Assembly: GCA_013415695.1 (NCBI GenBank) | Contig: JAAEEP010000002.1 | Coordinates: 1-64,000 of the forward strand | DNA length: 64,000 bases | DNA from: Methanomassiliicoccales archaeon | Lineage (GTDB): Archaea > Thermoplasmatota > Thermoplasmata > Methanomassiliicoccales > JAAEEP01 | Direction of reading: 5' to 3' | Shown: positions 29,501-43,575 of the stretch, in pieces | Layout of the letters: each line of letters opens with the position of its first letter | How positions within the stretch are numbered: position 1 is the stretch's first letter | Notes under the pieces: generated by a model | What the model was told of the DNA's origin: nothing | Database searches by the model: none | What the model saw: the letters and a program-made list of their open reading frames with translations, nothing else | Position numbers and translations under genes: made by a program

Positions 29501-30247
29501 ATGGACAAGAAGTCGGCCTTTGACGTCTACTCTACAAGTTCCGGACTGAAACAGGTGTCTAATCCGGTCCGACAGAAAATTCTTAGCGAGCTTCAGAGAA
29601 AGGACCTTAGCTTGAGTGAGATCGCTTCACTTACTAGTAAAGCCCAATCCACCTTGTCCGTCCATCTTGACAAGATGGTTAAGGAGGGATTGGTCGCCTC
29701 AAGAGATGACCCTACGGACAACCGTCGCAAGATATTCTACCTGATTTCAAGACCCGTCGGAAGCTCGGTCGTCCCCAGGGAGGACCTGAGGAAAGCCGTG
29801 GGAGAAACCATCCAGAGCTCGATCGGTACCCCCAGCTCGTTCCTTAAGGGGATGATCAGGAGCATAATCCTGGGAGTTGAAGCCATTGGGTTCAACATGG
29901 ACCCCGTCCTCAAAGACATTGGAAGGCAAATAGGGTCCGAGCTATCCAAGTCCATGAAATCCACCTCCATCGAGGAGCTGATGGAAGAAGTCCAGGAGTT
30001 CTACGAGATTCACGAAATGGGTGAGGTGTGCGTCTACACTTTCCTTCCCTTGACCTTGATCATCAGGGACGATTATGATTGCAAGGAACTTCCTGAAGCA
30101 AGCAAGACCCTCTGCCTTTTAAATGAGGGTATAATAGAGGCCATCTTGGAGACAAGATCGGGAGTACCTCTGAAGGTCACGGACACCGAGTGTTTCGGAA
30201 CTGGAATGAACTACTGCAAATATGTGATAGAACCCTCAGTTTACTGA
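29501..30247 (+). CDS. ArsR-like winged-helix regulator with V4R sensor domain
   Basis: A 248-residue one-component regulator. Residues 15-90 are an ArsR-type winged helix (VSNPVRQKILSELQRKDLSLSEIASLTSKAQSTLSVHLDKMVKEGLVASR). The C-terminal 160 residues look like a V4R (4-vinyl reductase) domain, a small-molecule-binding fold, ending in VTDTECFGTGMNYCKYVIEP with paired cysteines that could bind metal or ligand. TTAAATATTA at about 29465 stands upstream of ATG 29501, which fits a leaderless message. A longer reading from 29372 is rejected since it runs into the corA end and lacks domain sequence. Target genes are unknown. Confidence 0.82.
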   Translation: MDKKSAFDVYSTSSGLKQVSNPVRQKILSELQRKDLSLSEIASLTSKAQSTLSVHLDKMVKEGLVASRDDPTDNRRKIFYLISRPVGSSVVPREDLRKAVGETIQSSIGTPSSFLKGMIRSIILGVEAIGFNMDPVLKDIGRQIGSELSKSMKSTSIEELMEEVQEFYEIHEMGEVCVYTFLPLTLIIRDDYDCKELPEASKTLCLLNEGIIEAILETRSGVPLKVTDTECFGTGMNYCKYVIEPSVY

Positions 30248-30341: not shown

Positions 30342-31808
30342 TCATGGAGTGTACTTGAAAGGATGCCTGACTGATCTCTTCTGATAGAAGATCTCCTCCA
30401 TTGTTGGCCTTCCCTCGATCGCCTTCCTTATGGCATGTCTGGCAGCCTTGTAGTTGTTCACCATGACCCTGCGCTTGTTGGCCGCTGCAGGGTGGACGAA
30501 AACGTTGGCAAGTAGCACGATATCATCTAGAATCTCCTCTGGAAGGAATCCATCCTTGATCGAGGCCTCTATGCCCCATTTGAGCCCATCGGCCGCATGA
30601 ACATAGAGCAGCTCCTCCTGTGAAGCCGTCCTGGTTGAGATTGTGGGCACTAGTAATGTTCTGGGGCGGTCAAGTACGATGCGCATCTTAACCTGGTCCA
30701 CATCCACTTCAAGGGCGCGATCTATGGCTTTATCGACAGGCCCTCCCTTGACTCCAATCAGCAGGTCAGTGTGGGCAGTCTCCTGCACGGGCGGTCCCGC
30801 GAATCCTTCCCCTACAAGTAGCCCGAAGTTTCTTACCACCGAAGGTGTCTGGGGAGTTGCGAACACATCGGTTCTAACAGTCTTATTTCCAAGATCGTAC
30901 TCGATCTCCCTTTTGGATATCTTGCCCACATTTTCCAATTCTATCCTGAGTTCTTCAAGATCCTCGTGCTGGAAGGCGTCTCCGGGCATGGTAGGCCTTC
31001 TGGCTTTTCCAGGATCAACCCCCATCATCCATAGGCCCGCCTTGCATGATTGGGGTCCGCTTGTCCTGGTCACTATTCTAACAAGCTTCTGTATCTTCTG
31101 CTGGAGTTGCCTGGCCTCCTCAATCTCTCCATTGATGATATGGCGTCGGATATCCTGCCATATGTTTGGGATCAGATTGGCACTTGCCAGGATCACTCCA
31201 TCAGCTCCCTCGGCCATAGCCGCCATAGCGATCTCATCGTGACCACACAGGATGCTGATCTTACCCCTGAACTTCTCGAAGAGGGCGGCCATGTATGGCA
31301 TGTCCCCGCTGGAGTCCTTAATTCCGATGACGTTATCGAGGTAAGCCAGACCTTCTGAAGTCCACCACTTCTGATGGACTGTAGTGCACTGGGGTATGTT
31401 GTAAAGAATGATCGGTAATCCAACTGAGTTGACCTCATCGAAGTGTTCGTATATCTCCTTCCATGAAGGGTTGAAATAGTACGGCGTGACCACCAGGGCA
31501 GCGTCTGCGCCAAGGTCCATGGCGTCTTTTGTGAGCTGGACGGTAATCTTGGTACCGCTGGAACCTGTTCCCGCGATCACTGGTTTCCTCCCGTCCACTT
31601 GGTCCACCACGACCTCAATGGCACGGTTCCTCTCCTCCTCAGACATGTAAACGAATTCCCCGGTGGTTCCGTTGACCACGAATCCATCCACATCTGGCAT
31701 CAGGTGCTCGACTAGATTCCTCAGCTTCTCCTCGTCCATGCTCTCGTCGCTCTTGAAGGGGGTAACGAGAGCGGGGTACACTCCCTTGAGCCATTCTGCC
31801 TTCAGCAT
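30342..31808 (-). CDS. Fusion: DapA/NanA-type pyruvate aldolase + formaldehyde-activating enzyme (Fae), copy with active-site His
   Basis: A 488-residue two-domain protein. Residues 1-290 are a class I pyruvate aldolase of the dihydrodipicolinate synthase/N-acetylneuraminate lyase family: NGTTGEF near 46-52, catalytic Tyr136 in ILYNIP, and Schiff-base Lys164 in GIKDSSGD. The arginine that marks true DapA after YNVP is absent, so lysine synthesis is unlikely. Residues 328-488 match Fae, which joins formaldehyde to tetrahydromethanopterin: LLVGEGFAG, AHTDLLIG with His346 at the catalytic histidine position, VFVHPAAANKRRV, and a tail QKRSVRHPF very like the end of Fae proteins. Other Fae motifs (GPAQxG, HGF, KPxTL) are lost. 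It follows a sister gene by three bases. Role inferred: release of pyruvate plus aldehyde, with formaldehyde captured on the fused domain. Confidence 0.85.
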   Translation of the reverse strand: MLKAEWLKGVYPALVTPFKSDESMDEEKLRNLVEHLMPDVDGFVVNGTTGEFVYMSEEERNRAIEVVVDQVDGRKPVIAGTGSSGTKITVQLTKDAMDLGADAALVVTPYYFNPSWKEIYEHFDEVNSVGLPIILYNIPQCTTVHQKWWTSEGLAYLDNVIGIKDSSGDMPYMAALFEKFRGKISILCGHDEIAMAAMAEGADGVILASANLIPNIWQDIRRHIINGEIEEARQLQQKIQKLVRIVTRTSGPQSCKAGLWMMGVDPGKARRPTMPGDAFQHEDLEELRIELENVGKISKREIEYDLGNKTVRTDVFATPQTPSVVRNFGLLVGEGFAGPPVQETAHTDLLIGVKGGPVDKAIDRALEVDVDQVKMRIVLDRPRTLLVPTISTRTASQEELLYVHAADGLKWGIEASIKDGFLPEEILDDIVLLANVFVHPAAANKRRVMVNNYKAARHAIRKAIEGRPTMEEIFYQKRSVRHPFKYTP

Positions 31809-31811
31809 CTA

Positions 31812-33236
31812 TCACACCCCCTTCCCGAAGGCCTTGTCAATGGCCTGTGAGGTTGCGGCGTAGAAATTGTTGAACAGTATGTCTCTCTCCAGTGCGTTAG
31901 GATGGACGAATGCCTTAGTCAGCATCACGTGCGAATCGACGATCTCCATTGGTATGATACAATCCTCCACCTTGTCCGATATGGCCCTGGCTATGCCACC
32001 CTGTGCTGGGCCGTAGTAGATGTTTGCCTGTCTGAGGTTCTTCAGCTCCACCTTTGGAACGATCAGCGTTGAGGGTTTGGCCGAGAGATTGGGTTCCAGT
32101 ACACTCGGGAGCGCCTCGAATCCATGTCTCAGGTATACTATCTGCGAGGCGAAACTATCCCCGACCGGCCCGGCCTTTGGCCCAGCAACGAGATCGATTG
32201 ACACCTTGTTGATGCCTTCACCAGCGTTCCCGTCCCCTACTAGGATTCCGACCTCACTTGTTTGTTCAGCGGTGATTCCGATATCTTCAAAGCGCTTCTC
32301 CAATGGAAGTTCAGGAAGATCCATTTTCACCTCCGAGGGAGGGACCTTTCCGATCTTCTCCAGCTCAAGGCGTATCTCTTCTCTGTCCTCGTGGAGGATA
32401 ACACCTCCTACTTTGAGCGGTTTCCGAGGAGTCCCCATCTTGATCCCCATCGCGCCAAGAGCCGCCTTGATTGGGACAAAGCCACCATACCTGGTGAAGA
32501 TCCTCGAGAGCTTCTGGACCTGCAGCTGCTCCCTGCGTGCCGATTCGAGATCCCCTTCCTTCACTGCCCTATACACCTTCTGCCAGATGTCTGGATAGAC
32601 CTGAGCACTGGCGAGTATCATTCCAGTGCAGCCTCCAGCTAGGGCAGGGAGAACGACTTCATCATGGCCCACAACGACATTGATCTTGCCTTTGACCTTC
32701 TCGATGATCTCCATGGTGTAGGTGAGGTCTCCCGAGGAGTCCTTCAGGCCCACTACATTATCGATCTCAGCGAGATCCTCCACGACCCTCCTTGGGAGCA
32801 CGCGCCCAACGCATTGGGGTATGTTGTACAGAATTATCGAAAGTTCTGTTGAATTGGCCACCTGCCAGAAGTGTTCGTAAATACCCTTATCAGACGGATG
32901 CAAGAAGTACGGCGTCACCACCAAACAGGCATCGGCACCCGCGTCCTCCGCATACCTAGTGAGCTCCATTACCTGCCTGGTGCCAGGGGCACCAGTTCCG
33001 GCGATTACCGGACGCTTTCCGTTCACCTGATCGATGCAGATGTCGAAGACCCTCTTCCTCTCCTCAGTTGTCATGTAGTCGAACTCGCCCGTGGTACCAC
33101 AGGGAACGAATCCGTCAACATGTTCAAGGACCGTATCTATGAGGAGTCTGAAAGCCTCCTCGTTGATCTCCTTCTGCTTGTCGAACGGTGTCACGAGAGC
33201 CGGAAAGACCCCTTCTAATCGAAAGTCACTCGACAT
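31812..33236 (-). CDS. Fusion: DapA/NanA-type pyruvate aldolase + Fae domain, copy lacking active-site His
   Basis: A 474-residue sister of the downstream gene. The aldolase domain is intact: CGTTGEF near 46-52, Tyr137 in ILYNIP, Schiff-base Lys165 in GLKDSSGD. The Fae domain (about 329-474) keeps most Fae motifs: LVGDGNAG, AGPKAGPV, RHGFEALPSVLEPNL, KPSTLIVPKV, YYGPAQGGIARAI and AFVHPNALERD. The catalytic His is replaced by Ser346 (NKVSIDLV), and the basic Fae tail is missing. So each sister keeps what the other lacks. ATG 33236 is chosen; an upstream extension to 33293 would run through the promoter, where TATATAATATATT lies at 33268-33280. It is the first gene of the two-gene operon. Confidence 0.85.
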   Translation of the reverse strand: MSSDFRLEGVFPALVTPFDKQKEINEEAFRLLIDTVLEHVDGFVPCGTTGEFDYMTTEERKRVFDICIDQVNGKRPVIAGTGAPGTRQVMELTRYAEDAGADACLVVTPYFLHPSDKGIYEHFWQVANSTELSIILYNIPQCVGRVLPRRVVEDLAEIDNVVGLKDSSGDLTYTMEIIEKVKGKINVVVGHDEVVLPALAGGCTGMILASAQVYPDIWQKVYRAVKEGDLESARREQLQVQKLSRIFTRYGGFVPIKAALGAMGIKMGTPRKPLKVGGVILHEDREEIRLELEKIGKVPPSEVKMDLPELPLEKRFEDIGITAEQTSEVGILVGDGNAGEGINKVSIDLVAGPKAGPVGDSFASQIVYLRHGFEALPSVLEPNLSAKPSTLIVPKVELKNLRQANIYYGPAQGGIARAISDKVEDCIIPMEIVDSHVMLTKAFVHPNALERDILFNNFYAATSQAIDKAFGKGV

Positions 33237-39910: not shown

Positions 39911-40861
39911 TCAGGGGTTTCCCACTATCCTCATGATGTCTGGTCTCTCCCTTATCAGGTACTCCGCTATGCCGTAACCCACCTTATCGCCCATCCTGTA
40001 CTCGGCAAGCGTCTCGTGCATCAGTGAGATCCCATGTCCCTCTGGATTGGGAAACTCCATTATCGCCTTCTTCACTATGTTCGCGGTCACGTGATGGTTG
40101 CTCCCCTCCTTGTCGTTCAGGACCATCTCGAACGATTCCGGGGCTCCAGCATCACCGTAAACAGTGTCGATCTTCGCTTCCATAATGGGTATGTTCCTTC
40201 CATCCAGATGAATAAAACCAGCATCCACTACTCCCTGATCCACTACGAGTTTTGTGACATTCAAGGCGCAATCCTCTGAAAACTGACATGTGAGCCAGAT
40301 CCACATTCTGGGAGCGGTCCAATCCCTTACCCCCCAGGAGTGATCCCTCTCCCCTAGTCCATTGATTTCGTACTGTTTCCCACCGATCTCGAGGAGTCCC
40401 TTCACCCTCCCGAACTGCTCGAGATGCTCGGAGGCAACCTTCTTAGAGATAAGCTCCTTCTCGGGGGAGACACAATCCCTGTAATTGAAGACGTCGTTCA
40501 AGCCTTCCCAGTCGAGCATGAATGACACCCTTTTCAGAGGCCGCCCCTCCTCGAAAAGGGAGTAAAGACCGCCGTTGAACATGAGCGTCCATCTCTTTTC
40601 GGGCACTATCTTCTGGAATACTAGCCCTCCGGCGTTGAGCTCCGTGTCCTTGAATGGGACGTCCCTCTTGATGCCGATGATATTTCCGTCTGGCATCATA
40701 AGGAAGCAGAACATGTTCTTCTGCAGGCGGTTCGGCTTGAGGCCAATCCTCATGAACGCGCAGATGTCGTTTTCCTTGTCATAGAAACTGAAATAAAAGC
40801 TCTCATTCCAGTCCAGATCCCTTCCGAATCTATGAATGACGTCAGTGTCCGCCATGTTCAA
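39911..40861 (-). CDS. CrtC/AttH-like beta-barrel protein (DUF7064/7065-like)
   Basis: A 316-residue soluble protein, probably two lipocalin-like barrels as in the hydroxyneurosporene synthase (CrtC)/AttH group. The strongest mark is GLGERDHSWGVRDWTAPRMW near 175, the RDHSWGxRD motif of this group. The N-terminal half has the usual FMRIGLKPN and WTLMFNGG strands. There are no carotenoid genes nearby. It overlaps the upstream phosphotransferase gene by four bases (ATGA), so it may bind, isomerise or hydrate the same small molecule. Function is unknown. Confidence 0.65.
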   Translation of the reverse strand: MNMADTDVIHRFGRDLDWNESFYFSFYDKENDICAFMRIGLKPNRLQKNMFCFLMMPDGNIIGIKRDVPFKDTELNAGGLVFQKIVPEKRWTLMFNGGLYSLFEEGRPLKRVSFMLDWEGLNDVFNYRDCVSPEKELISKKVASEHLEQFGRVKGLLEIGGKQYEINGLGERDHSWGVRDWTAPRMWIWLTCQFSEDCALNVTKLVVDQGVVDAGFIHLDGRNIPIMEAKIDTVYGDAGAPESFEMVLNDKEGSNHHVTANIVKKAIMEFPNPEGHGISLMHETLAEYRMGDKVGYGIAEYLIRERPDIMRIVGNP

Positions 40862-43575
40862 TCACCTTTCACATAGATCATTCCATCATTGCCGTCCAGC
40901 ACGAGCTCCTGCCCAGTGCTGAATATCTTGGTGGCATTCTTGACAGCGGTAACCGCTGGTATTCCGTACTCCCTGGAAACGACCGCTCCATGGGATAGGA
41001 TCCCACCTGTCTCTGTGATCAGCCCTCCAAGCTTGGAAAAGACCGCTGTCCAACCGGGGTCAGTGTTGGAGGTTATCAGTATCTCTCCTTCCATGACCTC
41101 GGAAAGATGCTCGATGGAGTCAACCACCCTAGCCCTTCCCTTTGCCACTCCAGGACTGGCTGATGTGCCAGTTATCTTGAGGGAGTCCCCGTCCCTTACC
41201 TGGGTATCATCGAACTCCACCTTCCCCTTGAGGAATTTGGGTGGAAGGACCCCCTTGTACCTATCGAAGTCCGCCCTCCTTCTCCTGATATCGTCCTTTG
41301 ATGTCAGAACTCCACCCTTTGCGATATCGAATATCTCCTCCTTGGAAAGGAAGAAAATGTCATCCAGATCATCTACTATGCCCTTCTCGAGATACCTTCT
41401 ACCGTACTCTAGGAACAGGCGTCTCCATCTGTAGATTATATGGTCTAGATAGAAACGCTGGTTCTCCCTGAATTGAAGATAGATCTGGGCGTTCTTCAGC
41501 ACGATACGGAAGATCCCTCTCCTGAAATACCCCATTTTCAACCTGGATATCTGGTCCAGAATTTCCACCTCGGCCCTGGCTCTCTCCTCCTGCTTTCTCC
41601 TCTCCACCTCGTCAAGATCCAGGACTGGAGACCTTACGAGGGCTTTGAGGACATCAACAACGAGGGTTGGATCGTCACCCCATCTTGGAAAATAGACCTC
41701 CCTTGTATGGGAGCGGTGACCATATTCCTGCAGGAAGATTTCAAACTCCTTCCTGAATGATTTGAGTCCAGGCTCATGATCCAGGCTCTTGAGGAATCTC
41801 CCAGATTCCTCTTCCTCCATTCTTCGGAGGACTTCTGGATCGTCCATGGCAACCTTGGCAAGTCTAGCTATGGCAATGTTGGTCTTGATAGTCTTGTTGT
41901 CGGGGAGACCGGAGATGAGCTTGGAGTAAAGTGCCCCCGATCGGTCATCAAGCCAGTCGATCAGCCATCTCTTCACCATCAGATTGGTTCCGATGCTGTG
42001 AGTCACCATCCCGTACCTGATCAGCCTGTAGTGCTTGATATAGCTGCTCTCCATGTCCTTGAACTCGTGGTAGAGGGCCTCATCCTTGATCTTGGTCAGG
42101 TCCTTGGCGTCGAACTGGGCCGCCTTCTGCATGAAACCTTCAGCCCATTTTCTGTATGCCTTGTCCGTGCGGAGGATCATCCCGTCGGGGTCTAGGACCG
42201 CTATCCGTACCTCTGCCAAGAGCCTCTTGGCTACCTTGGTCCTCGCATTTGCGATGCGTTCCTGGTCCTTCTCCGGGAAGTAGTTGAGAAGCTCCTTTGT
42301 GCGGGAGAACTTGGGATTGTATGTGAAGACCGATTCCAATACCTCGGAGTTGAAGTAGATGTGTCCCTTGTGAAGTCTCAGGAGTTCTTTGTCGGTTAGT
42401 TCTCTGTAGCCCATGATCTTCGAGCCCTCATGATTGACATACTTGATCAGGTACTCACCTAGCAGGGAGAAGAACAGTGGGGAGGTCACATCTGCCCAGT
42501 ACTCATCACCGTACGCCCTGGTCCAGAGTGTCTGATCCTCCTCGTCAAGAGTGGTTATTGGCCTCGATTGAAGGATGAATATGTCCCCTCTACTAATGGA
42601 CCACTCGATATCCTGAGGGACCCCAAAGAACGCCTCAATGCTCTGACCAACTTGAGCCAATCGTTTGACATCACTATCGGTGAGCGATGGCTGTAGCCTC
42701 TTCTCCTTTCCCACTTCCACAAGTGACTTCCCCCCTTCGTTGAGGAGAATAGCCTTGTGTTTCTTGCTGATCTCCTGATCCAATATTCTTTGCCCTGTCC
42801 TTTCCACCATGAAACGGTCGGGGCTTACCAGACCAGAGACGATAGCTTCCCCCAATCCCCAGCTTGATTCTATTATGATGTCCCCTTGGGTTGGGTTCAA
42901 AGGATCGGTGGTGAACATTATACCAGAAGACTCAGATGCCACCATCCTCTGGACCACCACGGCGATGCCCCCCTCCATATGATCGATGGCCACGTCATGT
43001 CTATACCTCAGGGCACGAACATTCCAGTATGATGCCCAGCACCGCTTGACATGATCAGCGACCTCCGCGGAAGAGACACAGAGGAAAGTGTCCTGCTGAC
43101 CCGCGAATGAAGCATCAGGAAGGTCCTCAGCGGCAGCCGATGATCTTACAGCCCAGAGTTCTCCTCCACACTGCTCAAGGGCGATATCAATGGCGCTCAA
43201 CAGTTCAGGTCCGATCTCACCACCGAGAACCTTTTCCCTCACGCGTCTTGAGCAGGCCTCGACTTCTGATTCGACATTGAAATCGGTTGAATTAAGGCAG
43301 TCCAGTATCTCAACAATGATTTCGTTGGACTCGACGAATTCCTCATATGCCGCAACCGTGACAACGAAACCTGGAGGTACTGGGAAGCCTTCGGAAAACA
43401 TCACTGCCAAGTTCTTGGCCTTGCCACCCACCTCAGATATATCCTGGTCTGGTGAATCGAAGAAACGGATGTCAGAGGAATCGTCCCCACGCTCACCGAA
43501 TGCCGGAAGTCCTCCTGCCCCCTCCGTCATAACGGCGACATTATCTTTTCTGGCAATATAATTGTATGCCATCAT
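40858..43575 (-). CDS. PEP-synthase-like dikinase with rifampicin-phosphotransferase architecture
   Basis: A 905-residue enzyme. Residues 35-350 are the PPDK/PpsA ATP-binding domain (VGGKAKNLAVMFSEGFPVPPGFVVT, AVRSSAAAEDLPDASFAGQQDTFL, ESSWGLGEAIVSGLVSPDRF). About 360-790 is a long helical region unlike the PEP/pyruvate barrel. The swivelling phosphohistidine domain is last, with the His in GGILSHGAVVSREYGIPAV near 875. That order (ATP domain, acceptor domain, His domain) is that of rifampicin phosphotransferase, not of PEP synthase, where the His domain is central. It should phosphorylate an unknown acceptor from ATP, releasing AMP and Pi. It is coupled to the CrtC-like gene. Confidence 0.78.
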   Translation of the reverse strand: MMAYNYIARKDNVAVMTEGAGGLPAFGERGDDSSDIRFFDSPDQDISEVGGKAKNLAVMFSEGFPVPPGFVVTVAAYEEFVESNEIIVEILDCLNSTDFNVESEVEACSRRVREKVLGGEIGPELLSAIDIALEQCGGELWAVRSSAAAEDLPDASFAGQQDTFLCVSSAEVADHVKRCWASYWNVRALRYRHDVAIDHMEGGIAVVVQRMVASESSGIMFTTDPLNPTQGDIIIESSWGLGEAIVSGLVSPDRFMVERTGQRILDQEISKKHKAILLNEGGKSLVEVGKEKRLQPSLTDSDVKRLAQVGQSIEAFFGVPQDIEWSISRGDIFILQSRPITTLDEEDQTLWTRAYGDEYWADVTSPLFFSLLGEYLIKYVNHEGSKIMGYRELTDKELLRLHKGHIYFNSEVLESVFTYNPKFSRTKELLNYFPEKDQERIANARTKVAKRLLAEVRIAVLDPDGMILRTDKAYRKWAEGFMQKAAQFDAKDLTKIKDEALYHEFKDMESSYIKHYRLIRYGMVTHSIGTNLMVKRWLIDWLDDRSGALYSKLISGLPDNKTIKTNIAIARLAKVAMDDPEVLRRMEEEESGRFLKSLDHEPGLKSFRKEFEIFLQEYGHRSHTREVYFPRWGDDPTLVVDVLKALVRSPVLDLDEVERRKQEERARAEVEILDQISRLKMGYFRRGIFRIVLKNAQIYLQFRENQRFYLDHIIYRWRRLFLEYGRRYLEKGIVDDLDDIFFLSKEEIFDIAKGGVLTSKDDIRRRRADFDRYKGVLPPKFLKGKVEFDDTQVRDGDSLKITGTSASPGVAKGRARVVDSIEHLSEVMEGEILITSNTDPGWTAVFSKLGGLITETGGILSHGAVVSREYGIPAVTAVKNATKIFSTGQELVLDGNDGMIYVKGD

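Follow-up and report, generated by a model that had tools for sequence, protein, structure and literature searches.

The window, a stretch of 64,000 nucleotides from a Methanomassiliicoccales methanogen, carries two adjacent fusion genes on its minus strand, with the start codon (ATG) of the downstream gene 3 nt past the stop codon (TGA) of the upstream one. Gene A, the upstream fusion (31812..33236, minus strand), encodes 474 amino acids that comprise a class I aldolase domain of the DHDPS/NAL type (32412..33218), with the Schiff-base lysine K165, Y137 and a GTTGE motif, followed by a domain of the formaldehyde-activating enzyme (Fae) family (31824..32240), which retains HGF, EPNL, KPSTL and GPAQGG and has Ser at residue 346 instead of the Fae His, and no C-terminal tail. 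Gene B, the downstream fusion (30342..31808, minus strand), encodes 488 amino acids with the same domain order. Its class I aldolase domain (30957..31790) has K164, Y136 and GTTGE, and its Fae domain (30357..30815) keeps H346 (Fae His22), NNYKA and the RHPFKYTP tail, while the EPN loop and GPAQ are absent. A sequence-only reading of this DNA had described the tandem arrangement, the intact aldolase catalytic residues and the motifs kept by A, and all three were confirmed when coordinates, Pfam matches and alignments were checked. Its account of the losses stood only in part. In B, HGF and GPAQ are gone and the tail is kept, as it said, but KPxTL is changed to RPRTL (Lys to Arg, with TL retained) rather than lost; at residue 346, His in B and Ser in A are correct for this pair, but across the A family the Ser varies (Q, R, T or V, and His in 12%).

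Profile searches placed both halves of each protein securely. In Pfam, A matched DHDPS with E=1.3e-71 and Fae with E=3.4e-37, and B matched the same families with E=1.1e-72 and E=2e-27, all far over the gathering cut-offs; for Fae (PF08714), the scores were 128 bits (A) and 97 bits (B) against a cut-off of 27. With the NCBIfam fae model (TIGR03126), A scored over the cut-off and B slightly under it (106 vs 118 bits). The predicted structure of the B Fae domain (mean pLDDT 89) matched Fae of M. extorquens (1Y5Y) with a TM score of 0.85 and an rmsd of 2.0 A. Identification of the C-terminal domains as Fae, as originally proposed, is therefore supported by profile for both proteins and by predicted fold for B, with the fold of A assigned by sequence alone. 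No Hps domain was detected in A or B using Pfam and NCBIfam profiles. The two proteins contain the sole Fae domains found by profile search in their own genome, which is 99.6% complete and includes McrA. In PDB entries 8ub7-8ube, the chain named Avd also includes a full Fae sequence, apparently as a fusion partner for structure work.

The N-terminal domains share the Lys, Tyr and GTTGE of class I aldolases of the DHDPS/NAL family (PF00701: DapA, NanA, KDG aldolase), except in one lineage described below. Measured against the NCBIfam aldolase models, A and B did not reach the cut-offs for NanA and KDG aldolase, and exceeded that for dapA narrowly. Unlike DapA, the fusions have no Arg at the Arg138 position (aspartate-semialdehyde carboxylate), where C, V, T, A, S or similar residues are found, although this criterion is weak because the position varies also in DapA-like genes of Methanomassiliicoccales. 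A separate DapA-like gene is present in the same genome besides the fusions.

Fae matches were detected in 9 of 400 genomes of the class, and all nine were aldolase-Fae fusions. A scan of named genome contigs revealed 80 related loci, so the fusion is not confined to the genome in which it was noticed. The loci take three forms: a single fusion with canonical Fae residues (S), and the A and B forms, which occur together. Taking the taxon labels of metagenome-assembled genomes (MAGs) as given in the record titles, S was found in Bathyarchaeia, Asgard and Theionarchaea, mostly in genomes with a separate Fae-Hps gene elsewhere, and A with B was found in Methanomassiliicoccales, other Thermoplasmata, Chloroflexota, Baldrarchaeum, one Bathyarchaeon and one MAG labelled Proteobacteria; two A/B genomes additionally have Fae-Hps. 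Among named records, the nearest relatives of the window pair are three loci with Methanomassiliicoccales labels (L058, L059, L061). Both A and B were present in all 33 searched A/B genomes wherever contigs allow, including four that carry them on separate contigs (G406, G410, G419, G422), and no genome with adequate contigs among the 33 had one without the other; single or truncated matches were seen only at contig ends (G379, G402, G423). Since related pairs were never found apart, A and B probably function only jointly. Viral collections yielded no relatives. The aldolase-Fae fusion family is thus widespread, and a search of open-access papers found no prior description of it.

The sequence-only reading had noted complementary losses in the two Fae domains of this pair, and alignment of 33 A and 33 B sequences, numbered according to M. 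extorquens Fae, showed that the losses are nearly disjoint throughout the family. E11 was retained in 0.03 of A and 1.0 of B sequences, H22 in 0.12 and 1.0, N134 in 0.06 and 1.0, P150 in 0.03 and 1.0, and both H164 and P165 in 0 and 1.0; A21 is gone from most or all A and present in all B. The reverse pattern was obtained for P58, G85, P86 and Q88 (1.0 in A, 0 in B), and for N59, A92 and D97, which are lost in B and kept in A at 85-100%. Across archaea and bacteria, residues gone from one copy stay at 85-100% in the other. The exception is K63, altered in most A and B copies, so that the full invariant Fae set is found in neither polypeptide and is complete only in A and B jointly, save for K63 in most pairs. 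When the 29 positions that do not vary in canonical and S Fae were scored in 32 pairs, A kept 17.3, B kept 21.2 and their union 27.7 (minimum 27), and S single copies retained 28.4 of the same sites.

Statistical tests of this pattern were run at several cut-offs, and the ranges are quoted here. The overlap test for disjoint loss gave P=0.15-0.35 with the 29 sites and P=0.017 when 61 S-conserved sites were scored at the most permissive cut-off, retention tests gave P=0.03-0.09, and blocking of the losses into runs along the Fae sequence was not significant (P=0.29), all of these values being only descriptive because the sites are non-independent and one divergence lies behind the changes. The overlap and run tests on their own do not prove complementarity, and the disjoint-loss tests are marginal. 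The aldolase domains of the same proteins served as an internal contrast; there, 7 and 9 of 90 conserved sites were lost, with an overlap at or above expectation and no complementarity.

Among the aldolase domains, 30 of the 33 A and 30 of the 33 B sequences retain the catalytic Lys, Tyr and Thr-Thr. A single genus (G358, G361 and L089, at loci L025, L026 and L089) has lost the Schiff-base Lys and Thr-Thr from both aldolase domains, with Lys changed to Ala in A and to Leu in B, plus further losses; this lineage and truncated rows account for the B exceptions. Both proteins in this genus are under purifying selection, with dN/dS of about 0.05-0.12, and their Fae halves are still complementary. 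With catalytic residues gone and the Fae halves preserved, the aldolase reaction cannot be what is selected for in these cells. Coupling of the Fae domains to retro-aldol cleavage, which the sequence-only reading had proposed, is accordingly doubtful as a general rule.

Quick trees (SH-aLRT supports) were made for each domain. In the Fae-domain tree, A formed one clade (99), as did B with two fragments (99), and in the aldolase-domain tree, rooted on DapA, A (94) and B (99) were sisters (82). Judged from these trees, A and B are the products of one duplication. The distance matrices of A and B are also correlated (r=0.87, Mantel P=0.0002). In a Bathyarchaeota MAG (L086), the A-B pair is followed by a gene that, in other Bathyarchaeia, comes after the single fusion and that appears TrmI-like on reading its sequence; the A copy of this pair still has E11 and H22. 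This locus looks like an apparent intermediate, and its position in the genomic place of the S fusion suggests that a tandem duplication took place where the single fusion had been. From there, we infer, the pair reached Chloroflexota and Thermoplasmata by transfer.

The genes surrounding the pair were also considered. MsvR, mtnA and a class II aldolase accompany A/B in several genomes, and in the window an MsvR-type regulator (29519-30247; over the NCBIfam equivalog cut-off) lies tail-to-tail with gene B. The same block stands without A/B in G125, so it is evidence of location and not of function, and a functional role for these neighbors was rejected; MsvR and the class II aldolase also occur without the pair in G232, and nearly all members of the order have mtnA. 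At L204 and L205, tblastn detected no remnant of A/B. A TIM-barrel protein of about 313 aa, matched by neither Pfam nor NCBIfam (L018:6552-7490; homologues at L060, L066, L067, L070, L078, L081, L091, L112, L120 and L124), is often encoded directly upstream of the fusion in Chloroflexota, in two Thermoplasmata and in some S genomes. It is 61-94% identical across archaea and Chloroflexota, and its fold weakly resembles those of class II aldolases (TM 0.4-0.5, rmsd 6-13 A) and PrpB. As an essential third component in the organism studied here it was discarded, being absent from all searched Methanomassiliicoccales. Elsewhere in the window (39914-43575), a DUF7065/DUF7064 protein abuts a PPDK/PEP-synthase-like protein of 905 aa on the same strand.

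Fae active sites are said, from the work on 1Y5Y and 1Y60, to lie between subunits. The near-disjoint losses, and the fact that A and B were never found apart, support the mixed oligomers and composite sites that had been proposed earlier. We infer that a single aldolase-Fae fusion would have undergone tandem duplication to yield A and B as subunits of an obligate hetero-oligomer, each Fae domain having decayed on one side only. B would supply the N- and C-terminal half of the Fae site (E11, H22, F119, N134, P150 and H164-P165) and A the central half (P58-N59-L60 and G85-P86-x-Q88), such that a working site would require contact between an A domain and a B domain. There, formaldehyde would be joined to a pterin serving as C1 carrier, most likely tetrahydrofolate in this organism. 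The same assembly would receive formaldehyde from the class I pyruvate-aldolase domains, or supply it to them, the likeliest reaction being pyruvate + formaldehyde <-> 4-hydroxy-2-oxobutanoate. Fae is a homopentamer, and A and B could not strictly alternate in a ring of five, which counts against a hetero-oligomer. On balance we lean, by a little, towards the obligate hetero-oligomer with its folate and aldolase parts included; the composite site taken by itself seems somewhat more probable than the full proposal.

The choice of carrier separates this proposal from the original one, in which mixed Fae oligomers would pass formaldehyde from cleavage of 4-hydroxy-2-oxobutanoate to tetrahydromethanopterin (H4MPT) and into the methanopterin pathway of the organism. 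Fae is an H4MPT enzyme, and Mch was found in 17 of 18 S genomes and in two archaeal and five Chloroflexota A/B genomes. However, these make only 7 of 33 A/B genomes with Mch, against 29 of 33 with FolD (3 of 18 for S), a contrast that is confounded with taxonomy. Moreover, the genome studied here, at its 99.6% completeness, has no Mch and no RFAP-synthase match in searches that detected control methanogens, and neither was found in any other searched Thermoplasmata A/B genome, although absence of RFAP synthase is poorly diagnostic for H4MPT, since many Mch-bearing Bathyarchaeia are also without a match over the cut-off. FolD is present in this genome, as it is in Methanomassiliicoccales members without the pair. 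The literature describes a tetrahydrofolate pathway and no known role of tetrahydromethanopterin in Methanomassiliicoccales (PMC6147122), with no H4MPT branch in the order (PMC6147122; PMC11264602). Given the lack of Mch and of an RFAP-synthase match, and the presence of FolD, the proposed route of C1 units into a methanopterin pathway fails in this organism, and the original reading in full is highly improbable. Tetrahydrofolate appears the likelier carrier here, as judged from gene content. Folate is not a strict rule for A/B, because two A/B archaea (G408 and G424) have Mch and no FolD match over the cut-off.

Two further explanations keep the fusion and change its purpose. The Fae domains might be non-catalytic and serve an aldolase with a different substrate, either in assembly or in binding a ligand, with pterin or formaldehyde as the signal. 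This would fit the loss of the His and tail in A and of the central loop in B and the change of K63 in most copies, with aldolase residues intact in most proteins. Yet decay of this kind does not sit well with residues lost in one copy being held at 85-100% in the other, and the genus with dead aldolases and constrained Fae halves indicates that the aldolase is not the sole selected function; we regard this explanation as unlikely, though deserving to be kept in mind. The second explanation is assimilation, in which the aldolase domains would add formaldehyde from hexulose-phosphate synthase to pyruvate to give 4-hydroxy-2-oxobutanoate and then homoserine, with the composite Fae site holding or buffering formaldehyde on pterin. 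An HxlA-type match over the cut-off in the genome (G000:C35:3963-4577, within a 455-aa open frame) is a candidate formaldehyde source, and a similar suggestion was made for Fae-Hps in another methanogen, one that no longer has the H4MPT methyl branch (PMC9723798). The class I aldolase residues are intact, and a synthetic cycle uses the same aldolase chemistry followed by amination to homoserine (PMC8879981). However, HxlA matches occur across Methanomassiliicoccales whether or not the pair is present, neither an aminotransferase nor a homoserine gene is linked to the pair, the aldolases of one genus are dead, and 4-hydroxy-2-oxobutanoate (HOB) is termed a non-native metabolite in a review; assimilation seems to us less likely still. 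A broader version of the favored proposal, in which a folate-dependent Fae with its site split between paralogous fusions arose once, when a single fusion duplicated in archaea, and later reached archaea and bacteria that are mostly methanopterin-less, is offered tentatively, as a possibility short of probable.

Compared with known systems, the C-terminal domains of A/B share family and fold with Fae (PF08714/TIGR03126; 1Y5Y, 1Y60), but differ from it in being fused to an aldolase, in having the invariant residues divided over two proteins and in the absence of Mch from most A/B genomes. The Fae-Hps fusion (PRK13307), found beside the S fusion in S genomes, likewise joins Fae to a formaldehyde-releasing lyase; however, Hps is another enzyme, placed C-terminal to Fae, and one gene encodes that whole fusion, its Fae domain undivided. 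As a general principle, an ancestral homo-oligomer can give way to two complementary paralogues, duplicated subunits with a shared active site. The A/B pair resembles this arrangement, which we did not find reported for Fae in the open-access literature. If the composite site is real, the pair would be a clear natural example of a single active site split over two paralogues, and Fae-type formaldehyde capture would reach past the users of methanopterin. Pyruvate aldolase chemistry would also be tied to a C1 carrier in nature, a connection that to our knowledge has so far been seen only in synthetic formaldehyde pathways, and the pair would bear on how formaldehyde is handled in Methanomassiliicoccales and Anaerolineae.
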